DNA from: Ignavibacteriota bacterium
Lineage (GTDB): Bacteria > Bacteroidota > Ignavibacteria > UBA10030
DNA: 44,078 nucleotides
Assembly: GCA_003142575.1 (NCBI GenBank)
Contig: PLMS01000139.1
Coordinates: 1-44,078, forward strand
Direction: 5' to 3'
Positions 17,221 through 22,430 of the stretch are shown here, in pieces (within the stretch, counting starts at the first letter, position 1; the number at the start of each line of letters is the position of its first letter). The position numbers and the translations under genes were made by a program. The notes under the pieces were generated by a model. It was not told the DNA's origin, made no database searches, and worked only from the letters and a program-made list of their open reading frames with translations.

Positions 17221-19989
17221 ATGCAAAATGTGCAGTCCCCCACCGCCAAAGTTGATTCCCGTACACACGAAAATGAAAATGTGAAACGGGGATTACGTTT
17301 CGAAAGGTTCTTTACGAAACGAGGCGTGCATCCCTTCGATGAAGTTGAATGGGAACGGCGCACTGCTGCGATCTCGAACGATCGAGGGGAAAAAATCTTT
17401 GAACAAAAAGATGTTGAAATCCCCAAATCATGGTCGATGACAGCAACCAATGTTGTTGTCTCGAAATACTTCTATGGTCAATTAGGGACAGCAGAACGCG
17501 AAACGAGCATACGGCAGCTTGTCGATCGTGTTGCCAAATCGTACTATACATGGGGATTGAAAGACGGTTATTTCGCATCGGAAGAAGATGCAGAAATATT
17601 TTATCACGAGTTGCTGTATCTTCTCGTCAATCAATATATGTCGTTCAATAGCCCGGTCTGGTTCAACGTCGGCGTGGAAAAAATGCCGCAGTGTTCCGCA
17701 TGCTTTATCAATTCGGTTAAAGATTCAATGTCCTCCATTCTGGAGCTTGCAAAGACGGAAGGCATGCTCTTTAAGTATGGATCGGGCACGGGCTCCAATC
17801 TTTCCACTCTTCGCTCCTCCAAGGAACGTATCACCGGCGGCGGTACTGCGTCCGGACCGGTTTCGTTCATGAAAGGGTACGATGCGTTTGCGGGCGTTAT
17901 TAAATCCGGAGGGAAGACACGTCGCGCAGCAAAGATGGTGATTTTGAATGTCGAACATCCGGATATTGTCAGCTTCATCAATTGCAAAGCGGAAGAGGAG
18001 AAAAAAGCATGGGCGCTCATCGACGCTGGTTATGACGGCGGCTTCAATGTGCCCGGAGGCGCGTACGATTCTGTCTTTTATCAGAACGCCAATCACTCCA
18101 TTCGCGTGAGCGATGAATTCATGAAAGCCGTTCTGGAAGATAAAGAATTTTGGACTAAAGCCGTAAAAGGCGGAATGCCGGTGGAAAGATTCCGAGCGCG
18201 CGATCTGATGAAACAAATTGCCGACGCGGCATGGATCTGCGGCGATCCCGGTATCCAATTCCATACAACGATCAACAACTGGCACACGTGCTCCGGCACG
18301 GCGCCGATCCATTCATCAAATCCTTGCAGCGAGTACATGTTCCTCGATGACAGTGCATGCAACCTTGCATCGCTGAACCTGATGAAGTTTCGCAGAACGA
18401 ACGGCGATATCGATGTGGAAGCGTTTCAGAAAGCCATTCAGGTCGCGATTACCGCAATGGAAATGTCCGTCGATAATTCGAGTTACCCGACACCGGAGAT
18501 CACACGAAACAGTCACGACTATCGTCCGCTCGGACTCGGGTACGCAAACCTTGGCGCACTGCTCATGTCCCGCGGTGTTGCGTACGACAGCGATGAAGGC
18601 AGAACGCTTACCGCTGCCATCACTTCTCTCATGTGCGGCGAAGCGTACAAACAATCTGCAAAGATTGCTGAAGCGCAGGGACCATTCAGCGGATTTGCAG
18701 CGAATAGAGATCCGATGTTGAACGTGATGGCGAAACATGGCATTCACGCAGAACGCATCGACAAGAATGCAGTGGAACCCAGTCTCTGGGAAGCACAGCG
18801 CAATGTGTGGAACGATGTTGTTGAGTTAGGACAAATGCACGGCATCCGCAACGCGCAGACAACCGTTCTTGCCCCGACCGGCACGATCGGTTTCATGATG
18901 GATTGCGATACCACAGGCATTGAACCGGATATTGCTCTGGTGAAGTACAAGAAAATGAGCGGCGGCGGTTTGATGAAGATCGTCAACCAAACCGTACCGG
19001 AAGCGCTCACGAAGTTAGGATACGACGACGAGCAGATCGAACACATTATCTCATACATCGATAAGAACGATACCATCGAAGGCGCACCGCATCTGAAAGA
19101 AGAACATCTTTCGGTATTCGATTGCGCATTCAAACCGGCACACGGCAAGCGCTCCATTCAATATATGGGGCATATCAAGATGATGGCGGCAGCACAGCCG
19201 TACCTCTCCGGCGCAATTTCCAAGACGGTGAACATGCCGACCGATGTGACCGCTGAAGATATTATGAAAGCGTATACCGAAGCGTGGAAGCTCGGGTTGA
19301 AAGCCATCGCCGTGTACCGCGACGGATGCAAGCGCACACAGCCGCTCAGCACATCGCTCGATAAGAAAAAGGAAAAACAGGCGACGACCAACAAGCCTGC
19401 ACGCCGTCACTTGCAGGACGAGCGCCAATCCATTACGCACAAGTTCAGTATTGCCGGGCACGAGGGCTACATTACTGTCGGGATGTTTGAAGATGGAACG
19501 CCGGGCGAGTTATTCATCACGATGTCCAAGGAGGGTTCCACGATTTCCGGATTGATGGATTCGCTTGCCACATCGATTTCGATTGCACTGCAGTACGGCG
19601 TCCCGTTGAAGGTGATGGTAGATAAGTTCAGCCACGCGCGCTATGAGCCGTCCGGCTTCACGAACAATCCGGATATCCCGATTGCGAAATCCGTGAGCGA
19701 TTACATTTTCCGCTGGCTCGGCAAGAAATTTATCAAAGAAGAGAACGGTACGACAAATACGAATAATGCAGTCAGCGACGTGAAAATTTCGGAAGAAACC
19801 GCGAGGAAACCGGCAGGGATTCTTAACGCCGCTGCAACGAAAGCCGCTTCAGTGTGGGAGAAGAATGAGAAGTTTGTATTTGAGACCCAATCCGATGCAC
19901 CTCCATGCCACGAATGTGGAAGTATCATGATCCGCAGCGGAAGCTGTTATAAATGCCTGGAGTGTGGCTCGACGTCAGGCTGTTCATGA
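17221..19989 (+). CDS. nrdJ: Adenosylcobalamin-dependent (class II) ribonucleotide reductase
   Basis: NrdJ reduces ribonucleotides to deoxyribonucleotides using adenosylcobalamin, and so needs no oxygen. The 922-residue protein has the radical-site block NPCSEYMFLDD with N367, C369 and E371, the glycine-rich KYGSGTGSNLSTLRSS segment, and the phosphate-binding APTGTIGFMMDCDTTG block. The C-terminus ends in a zinc-ribbon-like tail (CHECGS, CYKCLECGS, GCS) whose cysteines may take part in re-reduction. It starts with ATG after a clear AAGGAG. No nrdA or nrdB partner is in the window. The long leader and the promoter at 16963 suggest it is its own transcription unit. Confidence 0.96.
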   Translation: MQNVQSPTAKVDSRTHENENVKRGLRFERFFTKRGVHPFDEVEWERRTAAISNDRGEKIFEQKDVEIPKSWSMTATNVVVSKYFYGQLGTAERETSIRQLVDRVAKSYYTWGLKDGYFASEEDAEIFYHELLYLLVNQYMSFNSPVWFNVGVEKMPQCSACFINSVKDSMSSILELAKTEGMLFKYGSGTGSNLSTLRSSKERITGGGTASGPVSFMKGYDAFAGVIKSGGKTRRAAKMVILNVEHPDIVSFINCKAEEEKKAWALIDAGYDGGFNVPGGAYDSVFYQNANHSIRVSDEFMKAVLEDKEFWTKAVKGGMPVERFRARDLMKQIADAAWICGDPGIQFHTTINNWHTCSGTAPIHSSNPCSEYMFLDDSACNLASLNLMKFRRTNGDIDVEAFQKAIQVAITAMEMSVDNSSYPTPEITRNSHDYRPLGLGYANLGALLMSRGVAYDSDEGRTLTAAITSLMCGEAYKQSAKIAEAQGPFSGFAANRDPMLNVMAKHGIHAERIDKNAVEPSLWEAQRNVWNDVVELGQMHGIRNAQTTVLAPTGTIGFMMDCDTTGIEPDIALVKYKKMSGGGLMKIVNQTVPEALTKLGYDDEQIEHIISYIDKNDTIEGAPHLKEEHLSVFDCAFKPAHGKRSIQYMGHIKMMAAAQPYLSGAISKTVNMPTDVTAEDIMKAYTEAWKLGLKAIAVYRDGCKRTQPLSTSLDKKKEKQATTNKPARRHLQDERQSITHKFSIAGHEGYITVGMFEDGTPGELFITMSKEGSTISGLMDSLATSISIALQYGVPLKVMVDKFSHARYEPSGFTNNPDIPIAKSVSDYIFRWLGKKFIKEENGTTNTNNAVSDVKISEETARKPAGILNAAATKAASVWEKNEKFVFETQSDAPPCHECGSIMIRSGSCYKCLECGSTSGCS

Positions 19990-19997
19990 TTTTAATA

Positions 19998-20106
19998 GTC
20001 ATTCCCGTCCCGACAAGTCGGGACTGTCGGCCTGCCCGCCGGTCAGGCGGGGAATCCAGAATTGCGGCCTTTACCTGGATACCCGCCAAAAGCTTGCGGG
20101 TATGAC
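19998..20106. repeat. Nested palindromic intergenic element with GTCAT-CCCG ends
   Basis: The ends GTCATTCCCG (19998-20007) and CGGGTATGAC (20097-20106) are inverted with one mismatch. Inside are GTCCCGAC-AA-GTCGGGAC (20007-20024, perfect 8-bp arms), a CCCGCC-GGTCA-GGCGGG hairpin and an ACCCGC...GCGGGT hairpin. It lies just after nrdJ and before the transposase. It looks like a small non-coding mobile element of the type common in environmental bacterial genomes. Confidence 0.65.
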
Positions 20107-20183
20107 AGAGAAAAAAGATATTCACAACAATAAGATGAGGTTGTGAGCAGCGGGGGAAGTAAAAACAGAAAGTAAAATTACGA

Positions 20184-20223
20184 CGAACGCCGGTGGTGGC
20201 AACATCATCGGCGTTCGTGTTTT
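20184..20223 (+). terminator. Terminator-like hairpin, first copy, upstream of the transposase
   Basis: The 15-base arms 20184-20198 and 20203-20217 pair with two G-T positions around GCAA, followed by TGTTTT. It could end nrdJ transcription. The right part (20195-20221) recurs at 20765-20791 after the transposase, and the hairpin recurs as a perfect version at 22392. Confidence 0.7.
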
Positions 20224-20235
20224 GGATTCGTGTTG

Positions 20236-20760
20236 ATGATAGAAAAGCGCCAAAGAAAAACGGTTCGACTCAGGGAGTATGATTATTCACAGCCAGGAGA
20301 ATATTTTGTAACGATTTGTACAAAGAATCATGAATGTATGTTTGGTTCAATTATAAATGGTAAGATGGATTTGAATGAAAGAGGAAGAATTATTGATGGA
20401 TGTTGGAAAGGAATTTCAGAATATTTCCCATATGTGGGTCTGGACGAATATATCATTATGCCCAATCATTTTCATGGCATTATCATCATAAATGAAATTG
20501 ATATTCATTGTTGTAGGGGCGAGGTGGCCTCGCCCCTACGAAAGCCGACATTGGGAAATATGACGGCATATTTTAAATATCAATCGACAAAATTGACAAA
20601 CGAATCACAAGTTACACCGGGTGCAAAGGTATGGCAGCGAAATTATTTCGATCGGATTATCCGCGGTGAAAAAGAATTGCAGAACATACGGGATTACATC
20701 TCCAATAATGTTCTCGCATGGGCATTTGAAACGGAACATCCGGAAAATATCCCGTTATAA
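20236..20760 (+). CDS. Y1 (HUH) transposase, REP-associated type
   Basis: The 174-residue protein has the HUH motif H78-F79-H80 (IMPNHFHGII) and the tyrosine nucleophile Y154 (RDYISNNVLAW), with the usual N-terminal block (RLREYDYSQPGEYFVTICTKN). Single-tyrosine transposases of this branch cut and join single-stranded DNA at hairpins and are linked to spread of REP palindromes. A perfect palindrome (20513-20539) lies in the coding region between motifs and is translated in frame, adding about nine residues (CRGEVASPL). I chose ATG 20236 over GTG 20230. The gene has no IS partner such as TnpB. Confidence 0.9.
   Translation: MIEKRQRKTVRLREYDYSQPGEYFVTICTKNHECMFGSIINGKMDLNERGRIIDGCWKGISEYFPYVGLDEYIIMPNHFHGIIIINEIDIHCCRGEVASPLRKPTLGNMTAYFKYQSTKLTNESQVTPGAKVWQRNYFDRIIRGEKELQNIRDYISNNVLAWAFETEHPENIPL
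20513..20539. repeat. Perfect 12-bp palindrome inside the transposase gene
   Basis: GTAGGGGCGAGG and CCTCGCCCCTAC are perfect 12-base arms around TGG. The 27-base insertion is a multiple of three, so the reading frame is kept across residues about 93-102. It resembles the hairpin at 732-755, sharing the CCCTACGA ending. Confidence 0.8.
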
Positions 20761-20764
20761 CTTC

Positions 20765-20791
20765 GGTGGAAACATCATCGGCGTTTGTATT
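20765..20791. repeat. Partial copy of the hairpin repeat after the transposase
   Basis: The 27 bases match 20195-20221 at 24 positions, with AACATCATCGGCGTT identical, but the left arm of the hairpin is missing. It lies a few bases after the transposase stop codon, so the gene is flanked by direct copies. Confidence 0.65.
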
Positions 20792-20995
20792 CAATATAAA
20801 ATATTACTGTGGTTCCAATTTTATAAATGATTATCGCATTCTTTCCTTTTTTTAATTCAAATTCGCACTTTTAGCGTCATCTATGGAAAGATGGATTTTT
20901 GTTCTGCGCTTGTTTTTCTCGCTAAATAGCAATACACTTCCACAAAATATTTTTATAAAAGTTTTATATCTCCAATAAAAAGCGAGGAGGTTCGT

Positions 20996-22357
20996 ATGTC
21001 GAACTATATTCAAGATCTCATTGCGGAGGTCAAAGCAAAAACCCCGGCAGAGCCGGAGTTTCACCAAGCGGTGGAGGAAGTTTTAGAGTCGCTTGTCGTT
21101 GTGCTGGATCGTCATCCGGAATATCGTTCTGTAAAAATTCTCGAACGCATGCTCGTGCCTGAGCGAGTGATTATCTTCCGAGTTCCGTGGGTTGACGAGC
21201 AAGGCGAAGTTCAGGTCAATCTCGGTTACCGTATTCAGATGAACAGCGCAATCGGCCCGTATAAAGGCGGCTTACGGTTCCATCCTTCCGTGACTCTTAG
21301 CATTTTGAAATTCCTGGCGTTCGAGCAGGTTTTCAAAAACAGTCTCACCACACTCCCGATGGGCGGAGGCAAGGGCGGCTCGGATTTCGATCCCCATGGT
21401 AAAAGCGATCTGGATACCATGCGTTTCTGTCAGGCGTTTATGAGCGAGTTGTTCCGACATATCGGTCCGGATACCGATGTCCCCGCCGGCGATATTGGCG
21501 TTGGAGGACGCGAAATCGGATATCTTTTTGGTCAATATAAAAAACTGCAAAACGAATTCACCGGCGTTCTTACCGGTAAAAGTCTGAACTGGGGCGGTTC
21601 GCTTATTCGTCCGGAAGCGACAGGGTACGGCGCTGTCTATTTTGCTTCGGAAATGCTCGCGACAAGAGGCAAAACCATTGTAGGTAAAGTGTGCCTTGTC
21701 TCCGGGAGTGGCAATGTGGCGCAGTATACAGTCGAAAAAATAAATCAGATGGGCGGAAAAGTCCTAACACTGTCTGATTCCAACGGCTACATCTACGATG
21801 AAGAAGGCGTTGATGAGAAGAAGCTTGCATTCGTGATGGAATTGAAAAACACCCGGCGCAAACGCATCTCGGAGTATGTCGACAAATACCCGAAGGCGGT
21901 GTACATACCGGTTGATCCGAAACTTGATTATAACCCGTTGTGGAATCACAAAGCAGATTGTGCGTTTCCAAGTGCGACACAAAACGAGATTAATGGTAAG
22001 GATGCACAGAACTTGCTGAAGAACGGCGTCTTTGTTGTTGCCGAGGGAGCGAACATGCCGACGACGCTCGACGGCGTAAAGATTTTCCTTGATGCAAGAA
22101 TTCTGTATGGACCGGGTAAGGCGGCAAATGCCGGCGGTGTCGCAACATCCGGTTTGGAAATGTCGCAAAACAGCATGCGCTTGCCGTGGCCGCGCGAGGA
22201 AGTGGATAATCGCCTGCACCAGATCATGAAGAGGATTCACAAAACTTGTGTCGATGTCGCAGAGCGATTCGGTACTCCCGGTAATTATGTTAACGGCGCC
22301 AACATTGGAGGATTTCTCAAAGTCGCTGATGCAATGATGGATCAGGGAGTGGTATAG
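20996..22357 (+). CDS. gdhA: Glutamate dehydrogenase, probably NADP-dependent
   Basis: The enzyme interconverts glutamate and 2-oxoglutarate plus ammonia. The 453-residue protein carries the catalytic block GPYKGGLRFHPSV and PMGGGKGGSDFDP (catalytic lysine K126), the nucleotide-binding VSGSGNVAQYT and the conserved AEGANMPTT. The size and the N-terminus match the hexameric family that mostly uses NADPH. The ATG has a strong GAGGAGG ribosome binding site. It stands alone, between the transposase region and the terminator at 22392. Confidence 0.95.
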   Translation: MSNYIQDLIAEVKAKTPAEPEFHQAVEEVLESLVVVLDRHPEYRSVKILERMLVPERVIIFRVPWVDEQGEVQVNLGYRIQMNSAIGPYKGGLRFHPSVTLSILKFLAFEQVFKNSLTTLPMGGGKGGSDFDPHGKSDLDTMRFCQAFMSELFRHIGPDTDVPAGDIGVGGREIGYLFGQYKKLQNEFTGVLTGKSLNWGGSLIRPEATGYGAVYFASEMLATRGKTIVGKVCLVSGSGNVAQYTVEKINQMGGKVLTLSDSNGYIYDEEGVDEKKLAFVMELKNTRRKRISEYVDKYPKAVYIPVDPKLDYNPLWNHKADCAFPSATQNEINGKDAQNLLKNGVFVVAEGANMPTTLDGVKIFLDARILYGPGKAANAGGVATSGLEMSQNSMRLPWPREEVDNRLHQIMKRIHKTCVDVAERFGTPGNYVNGANIGGFLKVADAMMDQGVV

Positions 22358-22391
22358 TCGTATCGAAAGCACATCGATTATCGCACCGATG

Positions 22392-22430
22392 AACGCCGAT
22401 GATGGTAACATCATCGGCGTTTGTGTTTTT
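22392..22430 (+). terminator. Rho-independent terminator of gdhA, intact copy of the hairpin repeat
   Basis: AACGCCGATGATG (22392-22404) and CATCATCGGCGTT (22409-22421) form a perfect 13-bp stem around GTAA, followed by TGTGTTTTT. The same hairpin sequence recurs at 20184 and partly at 20765. Confidence 0.85.

Follow-up and report, generated by a model that had tools for sequence, protein, structure and literature searches.

A Putative Host Terminator, Its Local Copies, and an In-Gene Palindrome at a REP-Type Transposase Locus beside nrdJ in an Ignavibacteriota Bacterium

The window analyzed here, the whole 44,078-nt stretch of contig PLMS01000139.1 from an Ignavibacteriota bacterium (genome G000), carries a Y1 transposase gene between nrdJ and gdhA, with one hairpin (A) directly behind nrdJ, a decayed copy (B) directly behind the transposase gene and a third hairpin (C) behind gdhA (table 1).

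Table 1. Coordinates in the window of the genes, hairpins and protein motifs discussed in the text
Feature	Positions	Strand	Remark
nrdJ, B12-dependent ribonucleotide reductase	17221..19989	+	Owner of terminator A
Hairpin A with the T-rich stretch after it	20183..20223	+	Predicted nrdJ terminator, conserved in congeners
Y1 transposase, TnpAREP/RAYT relative	20236..20760	+	ATG start; GTG at 20230 also possible
HUH motif, H78-F79-H80	20467..20475	+	Invariant histidines
Double-foot palindrome GTAGGGGCGAGG-TGG-CCTCGCCCCTAC	20513..20539	+	Likely cognate REP, inside the transposase ORF
Helix 106–125, directly behind the palindrome	20551..20610	+	Covaries with the palindrome in relatives; probably DNA-binding
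W133-Q134	20632..20637	+	Counterpart of W94-Q95 of the Escherichia coli enzyme (region reading GTAG; PMC6006769)
Y154 (catalytic Tyr) to N158	20695..20709	+	
Copy B, decayed hairpin directly 3' of the transposase	20765..20791	+	Full hairpin at the same place in G003
gdhA, NADP-specific glutamate dehydrogenase	20996..22357	+	
Hairpin C with T-run	22389..22430	+	Predicted gdhA terminator, homologous to A

Hairpins behind nrdJ, the Transposase Gene and gdhA

Hairpin A folds at 20183–20218 into a 16-bp stem with a GCAA loop (−29.2 kcal/mol over 20178–20225; z −7.2 against dinucleotide shuffles), and hairpin C at 22389–22424 into a 16-bp stem with a GTAA loop (−25.8 kcal/mol over 22384–22430; z −6.8 against such shuffles). 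Copy B (20755–20796) folds poorly, at −6.8 kcal/mol (z −1.4), with 21 of 200 shuffles equal or better. The initial annotation had placed three hairpin copies at these sites, and all are present, including the direct repeat in which A and B agree at 24 of 27 positions; its stems are real but were drawn too short, by one base per side in A and three in C. Over the same 43 nt, A is 88% identical to C and 63% identical to B. Both A and C pair a stable hairpin with a T-rich stretch 3' of a gene, the two marks of an intrinsic terminator, although the stretch behind A is interrupted (GTGTTTT).

Copies of the hairpin are few. The sequence AACATCATCGGCGTT has exactly three exact matches on the forward strand of the window and, on the reverse strand, one match with one mismatch, which is the other arm of C; at up to 3 mismatches there are 7 matches in the window, against a shuffle mean of 2.1 (1 of 100 shuffles gave as many). 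Throughout the genome (3.28 Mb, 152 contigs), CATCATCGGCGTT is matched four times, always within hairpins A, B and C, two of these matches being the two arms of C. The dispersed hairpin family for which the initial annotation had proposed a genome search is thus absent, the core being confined to the three hairpins. Neither dispersed copies (in this genome by CATCATCGGCGTT, in 13 genomes by an outer-stem pattern) nor a GTAG-type tetranucleotide at the foot of A, B or C (read from the sequence) were found, and the three hairpins are not REPs.

A single hairpin of the same plan lies behind nrdJ in two other members of the genus (G001 and G005), both lacking a transposase within the next 1.5 kb, and in G009, from another genus of the same family, where a protein search found no transposase homologue at E 1e-5; in G001, the likeness extends to the sequence just upstream of the hairpin. 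Across nine hairpins (those behind nrdJ in six genomes, B of G003, and C of G000 and G004, leaving aside the G002 hairpin, whose loop is one base longer, and the decayed B of G000 and G004), standard pairs fill 99.1% of 117 cells, with the sole unpaired cell in G005, and five cells have changed on both sides; each of these values was reached by 1 of 500 shuffles. The loop is GCAA, GTAA or GAAA, all of the GNRA type, in eight of the nine, and GAAG in G009. The outer-stem pattern, which misses copies with an altered outer stem such as B of G000 and C of G004, gave many unrelated matches in the 13 genomes and found this hairpin type only behind nrdJ (G000, G001, G003, G004, G005), this transposase (G003) and gdhA (G000, G002). 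The type is thus confined to this neighborhood, and we reject the idea that the genus commonly uses the outer-stem hairpin as a terminator. The same plan behind nrdJ without a transposase, together with this confinement, marks A as the old nrdJ terminator and B and C as its local relatives. As judged from the sequences, hairpin A is a host terminator, predicted to act intrinsically, that stands behind nrdJ independently of any transposase. Ordinary as this result is, it removes a tempting misreading, in which terminators are the spread unit of a REP transposase: the initial annotation had considered the hairpin as a spread unit or moving end, and this does not agree with a hairpin in G009 without a detected transposase, a core unique in its genome and no dispersed copies in 13 genomes. 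A separate block of composite inverted repeats, GTCATTCCCG..GCGGGTATGACA, lies behind nrdJ at 19998–20110, with a similar block at the same place in G004; GCGGGTATGACA occurs once in the genome, with no second copy.

History of the Locus

Gene order varies among the congeners. G003 has nrdJ, hairpin, transposase and full hairpin, and G004 has nrdJ, hairpin, transposase, half hairpin, a small gene, gdhA and a C-type hairpin; in G005, nrdJ and its hairpin are followed by the same small gene that comes after B in G004, which makes this the place without the transposase (such sites come from diverged congeners, not strain pairs). Copy B occupies the same position in three genomes, full in G003 and decayed in G000 and G004. 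The gdhA gene adjoins the nrdJ/transposase locus in G000 and G004, and in G001, G003 and G005 lies on another contig or ~280 kb off, with unrelated terminators. In G002, gdhA is followed by a hairpin of this type, on a contig that starts inside gdhA; nrdJ was not found in this genome, which is therefore uninformative at nrdJ. An asnS-like gene of G000 is nearest to that of G002 (0.947) and then G001 (0.792), that of G003 being nearest to G004 (0.843); nrdJ of G000 is nearest to G003 (0.831, against 0.778 for the asnS-like gene), and gdhA of G000 is closer to G004 (0.845; asnS-like 0.782) than to G001 (0.777). (Here and below, the names asnS, hsdS, ORF6N and ornithine carbamoyltransferase come from reading translations only.) We read these discordant affinities as probable recombination between congeners at the locus.

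The tie between transposase and terminator copies seen in the initial annotation holds: the gene stands directly behind the host terminator, with a second copy after it, and G001 and G005, which lack the transposase there, have just one terminator. In some congeners, a Y1 transposase gene of RAYT type would have ended up directly 3' of the nrdJ terminator, with a second terminator copy behind it and a further homologous copy behind gdhA; B and C are probably local products of a duplication at insertion or of later recombination.

One specific route to A and B would be insertion at the nrdJ terminator with a target duplication of ~36 nt, which we regard as quite possible, if somewhat short of an even chance. 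In G003, two near-identical full hairpins bound a unit of 15 nt, the ORF and 1 nt, and in G005, one hairpin is followed by the gene that comes after B in G004. Flank repeats are also commoner around related transposases than around controls, at 16 of 57 versus 6 of 137 (a control count that includes four transposase genes, L008, L021, L041 and L126, and becomes 2 of 133 without them) and, in a further set, at 20 of 76 versus 3 of 139 control ORFs; the sets used 59 of 61, 57 of 61 and 76 of 80 transposases, the rest having flanks that were too short or contained N. Against such a duplication, many of the counted repeats are REPs, equal to the in-gene palindrome described below (e.g., at L218, L197, L184 and L176), whereas others are cassette repeats (at L143 and L006, one repeat recurring in an array) or element repeats (at L164 and L165, common to different loci of one element), and the repeat at L076 is absent from the site in five of five congeners. 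Y1 transposition as in IS200/IS605 elements is, moreover, not known to duplicate its target. With such mixed sources, the flank repeats do not establish target duplication as a general process.

Several of these loci have features of their own. At L006 (2028–2900) and L143 (G000:C34 and G002:C65), an ~80-nt repeat, CTTGCCCTCC..GAACCAGTCATGATTACCATGGGGGATCGCCGATGACA, precedes successive genes, one of them ORF6N-like, an arrangement reminiscent of a gene-cassette array with the transposase as one member. Related transposases at different loci (L164 and L165, G000:C147 and C135; L073, G002:C29) have ~50–80 nt in common before the start, and at both L164 and L165 the direct repeat AGCTTTTGGCTACATTT flanks the gene on either side; these common flanks hint that the gene itself may have moved. 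The transposase at L087 (G015:C79) lies directly behind the end of an hsdS-like gene, with a diverged second copy of that 3' end behind it (69 of 85 positions), and that at L095 (G012:C12) lies directly behind a small ORF, again with a diverged 3'-end copy behind it (~70 of 92 positions). At L090 (1156–1449; G036:C13), four near-identical GTAGGGGCGGTGC palindromes stand in tandem, ~91 nt apart, beside the transposase.

The further suggestion that host terminators are the target of this REP-type transposase does not generalize: a terminator lies within 150 nt upstream of 6 of 140 related transposases (three of the six being this locus) versus 18 of 256 control ORFs, and downstream of 6 of 137 versus 17 of 256. 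We consider it very improbable that the hairpins belong to the transposase as its ends or REPs, with A as left end, B as right end and C as a moved solo copy. Similar copies on both sides of the gene, the full hairpin pair in G003 and the frequent flanking of RAYT genes by REPs (PMC3733652) are what such ends would give; however, the hairpin stands behind nrdJ in G001 and G005 without a transposase there, and in G009, no copies are dispersed, its foot lacks a GTAG-type tetranucleotide, and it is a different palindrome (GTAG..CTAC) that tracks the transposase gene. That A, B and C are three unrelated terminators, alike by chance or by convergence on GC stems with GNRA loops, is equally improbable despite the weakness of B, given the likeness of A to C, the restriction of the stem type to this neighborhood in 13 genomes and the homology of A and B in three congeners.

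The Transposase, Its Palindrome and the Following Helix

The transposase (174 residues from the ATG at 20236) has both the HUH motif and a catalytic Tyr with Asn four residues on, the signature of TnpAREP/RAYT proteins, and H78, H80, W133, Q134, Y154 and N158 are invariant in alignments of 20 and of 38 sequences. It scores 43.9 bits (E 2.1e-11) against the NCBIfam model NF047646 (REP-associated tyrosine transposase), below the curated cut-off of 80, so we call it a relative rather than a member of that equivalog model. The REP-bound TnpAREP structure 4ER8 is matched by profile (E 8.1e-7) and, with an AlphaFold2 model (mean pLDDT 88.1, pTM 0.83), by Foldseek (E 2.6e-6, TM 0.60 by query); the model also matches the ISDra2 and IS608 transposases. 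Searches of PHROGs, and of Pfam at E 0.001, gave no match, and a single-sequence search of solved structures gave only two chance-level matches. By sequence and predicted fold, the protein is a Y1 transposase related to TnpAREP (RAYT), with relatives encoded at five loci of the genome, this one included (the C135 copy is broken).

Inside the ORF lies a double-foot palindrome (RNA fold −26.7 kcal/mol; z −5.3) that encodes about residues 93–102, between the HUH strand (78–85) and helix 106–125, in a stretch modeled with low confidence (mean pLDDT 52 for residues 91–100). At up to 3 mismatches, the genome has four further sites, one in C78 that is exact outside the loop and three in C68 with 1–3 mismatches; G004, whose orthologue has the same arms, has one further site, whereas G001, G002, G003 and G005 have none, nor did a reversed control pattern give any. 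Sites of the form GTAGGG..CCCTAC number 11 in the genome versus 2 for a control. Of the 11, three are in transposase ORFs, seven are outside every frame of at least 90 codons, and one precedes the probable start of a carbamoyltransferase-like gene. Within 1000 nt on either side of the window's transposase, no arm of its own palindrome was found, so that it does not form a REPtron. For 19 of 85 relatives with such a palindrome, this gene not among them, the gene's own palindrome arm recurs within the 1-kb flanks (permutation mean 2.0, maximum 7); for the arms of other genes, the figure is 40 of 5308. The most likely substrate of the enzyme would be the GTAG..CTAC palindrome in its own ORF, together with the few other sites of that sequence. 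From what is known of the family, the palindrome would bind as a folded single strand to the helix encoded just behind it, a link that the covariation described below supports, GTAG would be read near W133-Q134, and Tyr154 would act as the nucleophile. Taken as a whole, we consider it probable that the locus combines a host nrdJ terminator and its local copies with a transposase whose substrate is the in-gene palindrome.

The comparison covered 141 transposases. Genomes of the order supplied 61, the window's among them, and named records spanning many phyla supplied the other 80, taken as the best of 570 confirmed; 12 that were broken or lacked the HUH and [WF]Q anchors were left out. By a strict rule, a double-foot palindrome lies between HUH and Tyr in 85 of the 129 full-length relatives, this gene included, whereas 44 lack one, several of these having doubled or degenerate palindromes. 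Two or more palindromes stand in a row inside the genes at L167, L188, L219, L226, L231 and L232, like small REP clusters within a coding sequence. The palindrome uses the three codon frames 46, 39 and 0 times (46 vs. 39, binomial p 0.52); in the third, the TAG within GTAG would be a stop codon. The near-equal use of both stop-free frames suggests that it is the DNA, rather than the peptide, that is kept.

For 82 of these genes (the 85 minus L092, L136 and L190), the 9 nt after GTAG were compared with the middle, the stretch of 34 residues leading up to WQ, without those encoded by the palindrome (some middles are truncated at an FQ by the [WF]Q anchor). Palindrome distance correlates with that of the middle (Mantel r 0.54) more than with that of the N-half (0.26) or C-part (0.22), and none of 2000 permutations reaches the three correlations; the partial correlation is 0.495 for the middle given the N-half, and 0.083 for the N-half given the middle. 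Restricted to the 44 named loci, the values are 0.56, 0.27 and 0.21 (middle, N-half and C-part). Among the 187 of 3321 pairs whose 9 nt differ at one position or none, identity is 0.62 versus 0.35 in the middle and 0.57 versus 0.51 in the N-half. Shuffles and permutations of this kind remove shared ancestry only in part. Exceptions speak against a simple code: the window's gene (L005) and L072 share their arm, but not their helix, with L078, L193 and L212 (middle identity 0.27–0.41), and L074, whose arm differs by one base from that of the GCGGTTCG group, has a middle identity to this group of 0.29–0.44.

The three orthologues at nrdJ are themselves mosaic at this point. Informative sites joining G000 with G003, G000 with G004, and G003 with G004 number 60, 22 and 19 in the N-half, 13, 28 and 10 from the palindrome to WQ, and 13, 8 and 17 behind WQ (Fisher p 1.5e-5 for N-half vs. 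middle in the first two classes; chi-square p 0.005 and 0.004 for the C-part against each of the two). As a single case of three sequences, the mosaic fits an exchange near the palindrome.

It is rather unlikely, in our view, that the palindrome is a neutral insertion in a tolerant loop, linked to the helix only through common descent of gene lineages. Such an insertion would suit the little impact on activity suggested in PMC6006769 and the low-confidence loop that holds the encoded residues; however, the middle shows a far closer link than the N-half or C-part do, one that survives control for the N-half, similar palindromes accompany similar helices in both frames (L180, L230), and the nrdJ orthologues are mosaic here. 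We tentatively hypothesize that, in this RAYT group, an in-gene REP together with the helix that follows it makes up a single exchangeable specificity cassette, that self-nicking may promote its exchange, and that the nrdJ mosaic may be one such exchange. If so, each gene would carry its own recognition site beside the protein part that reads it, and the coding sequence of a RAYT would itself reveal its target, as a natural recognition code. The choice of REP by REP transposases and the origin of new specificities are open questions in the field; should the in-gene REP record enzyme specificity, many enzyme/target pairs could be read from genomes, and helix swaps can test the rule.

Relation to Known Systems

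Hairpins A and C resemble intrinsic (Rho-independent) terminators in their GC-rich stem, stable tetraloop, T-rich stretch and site directly behind a gene, and differ from them in the broken T stretch of A; B, unlike such terminators, hardly folds. With the IS200/IS605 TnpA proteins (IS608, ISDra2) the transposase shares fold and catalytic core, but the fourth residue past its Tyr is N rather than Q, no subterminal hairpin ends were recognized, and its neighbors are nrdJ and gdhA. REPtrons and TIRtrons, as described by Di Nocera et al. (2013; PMC3733652), likewise place one tyrosine transposase gene between repeats; here, however, the flanks are a direct repeat of a host terminator rather than GTAG REPs or long inverted repeats.

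A close likeness is to TnpAREP subclass 2.4, for which in-gene REPs have been published (Quentin et al. 2018; PMC6006769). By its described features, rather than by that paper's own classification, the window's transposase shares with this subclass the HUH and Y---N motifs, the conserved WQ and R, and a double-foot GT[AG]G..C[TC]AC REP in frame between HUH and Y, and, as in that paper, such genes occur in many phyla. The in-gene REP is hence known in kind; a link to the following helix was not found described, the TnpAREP literature consulted, which comprised sections and passages of PMC6006769, PMC3733652 and PMC2817692 among others, holding no statement of REP/helix covariation that we found, nor did we find the near-equal use of both stop-free frames in print. 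Unlike subclass 2.4, the gene studied here has no matching REP in its 1-kb flanks but a duplicated host terminator. PMC6006769 further suggests little consequence of the insertion, whereas in the genes compared here REP and helix covary.
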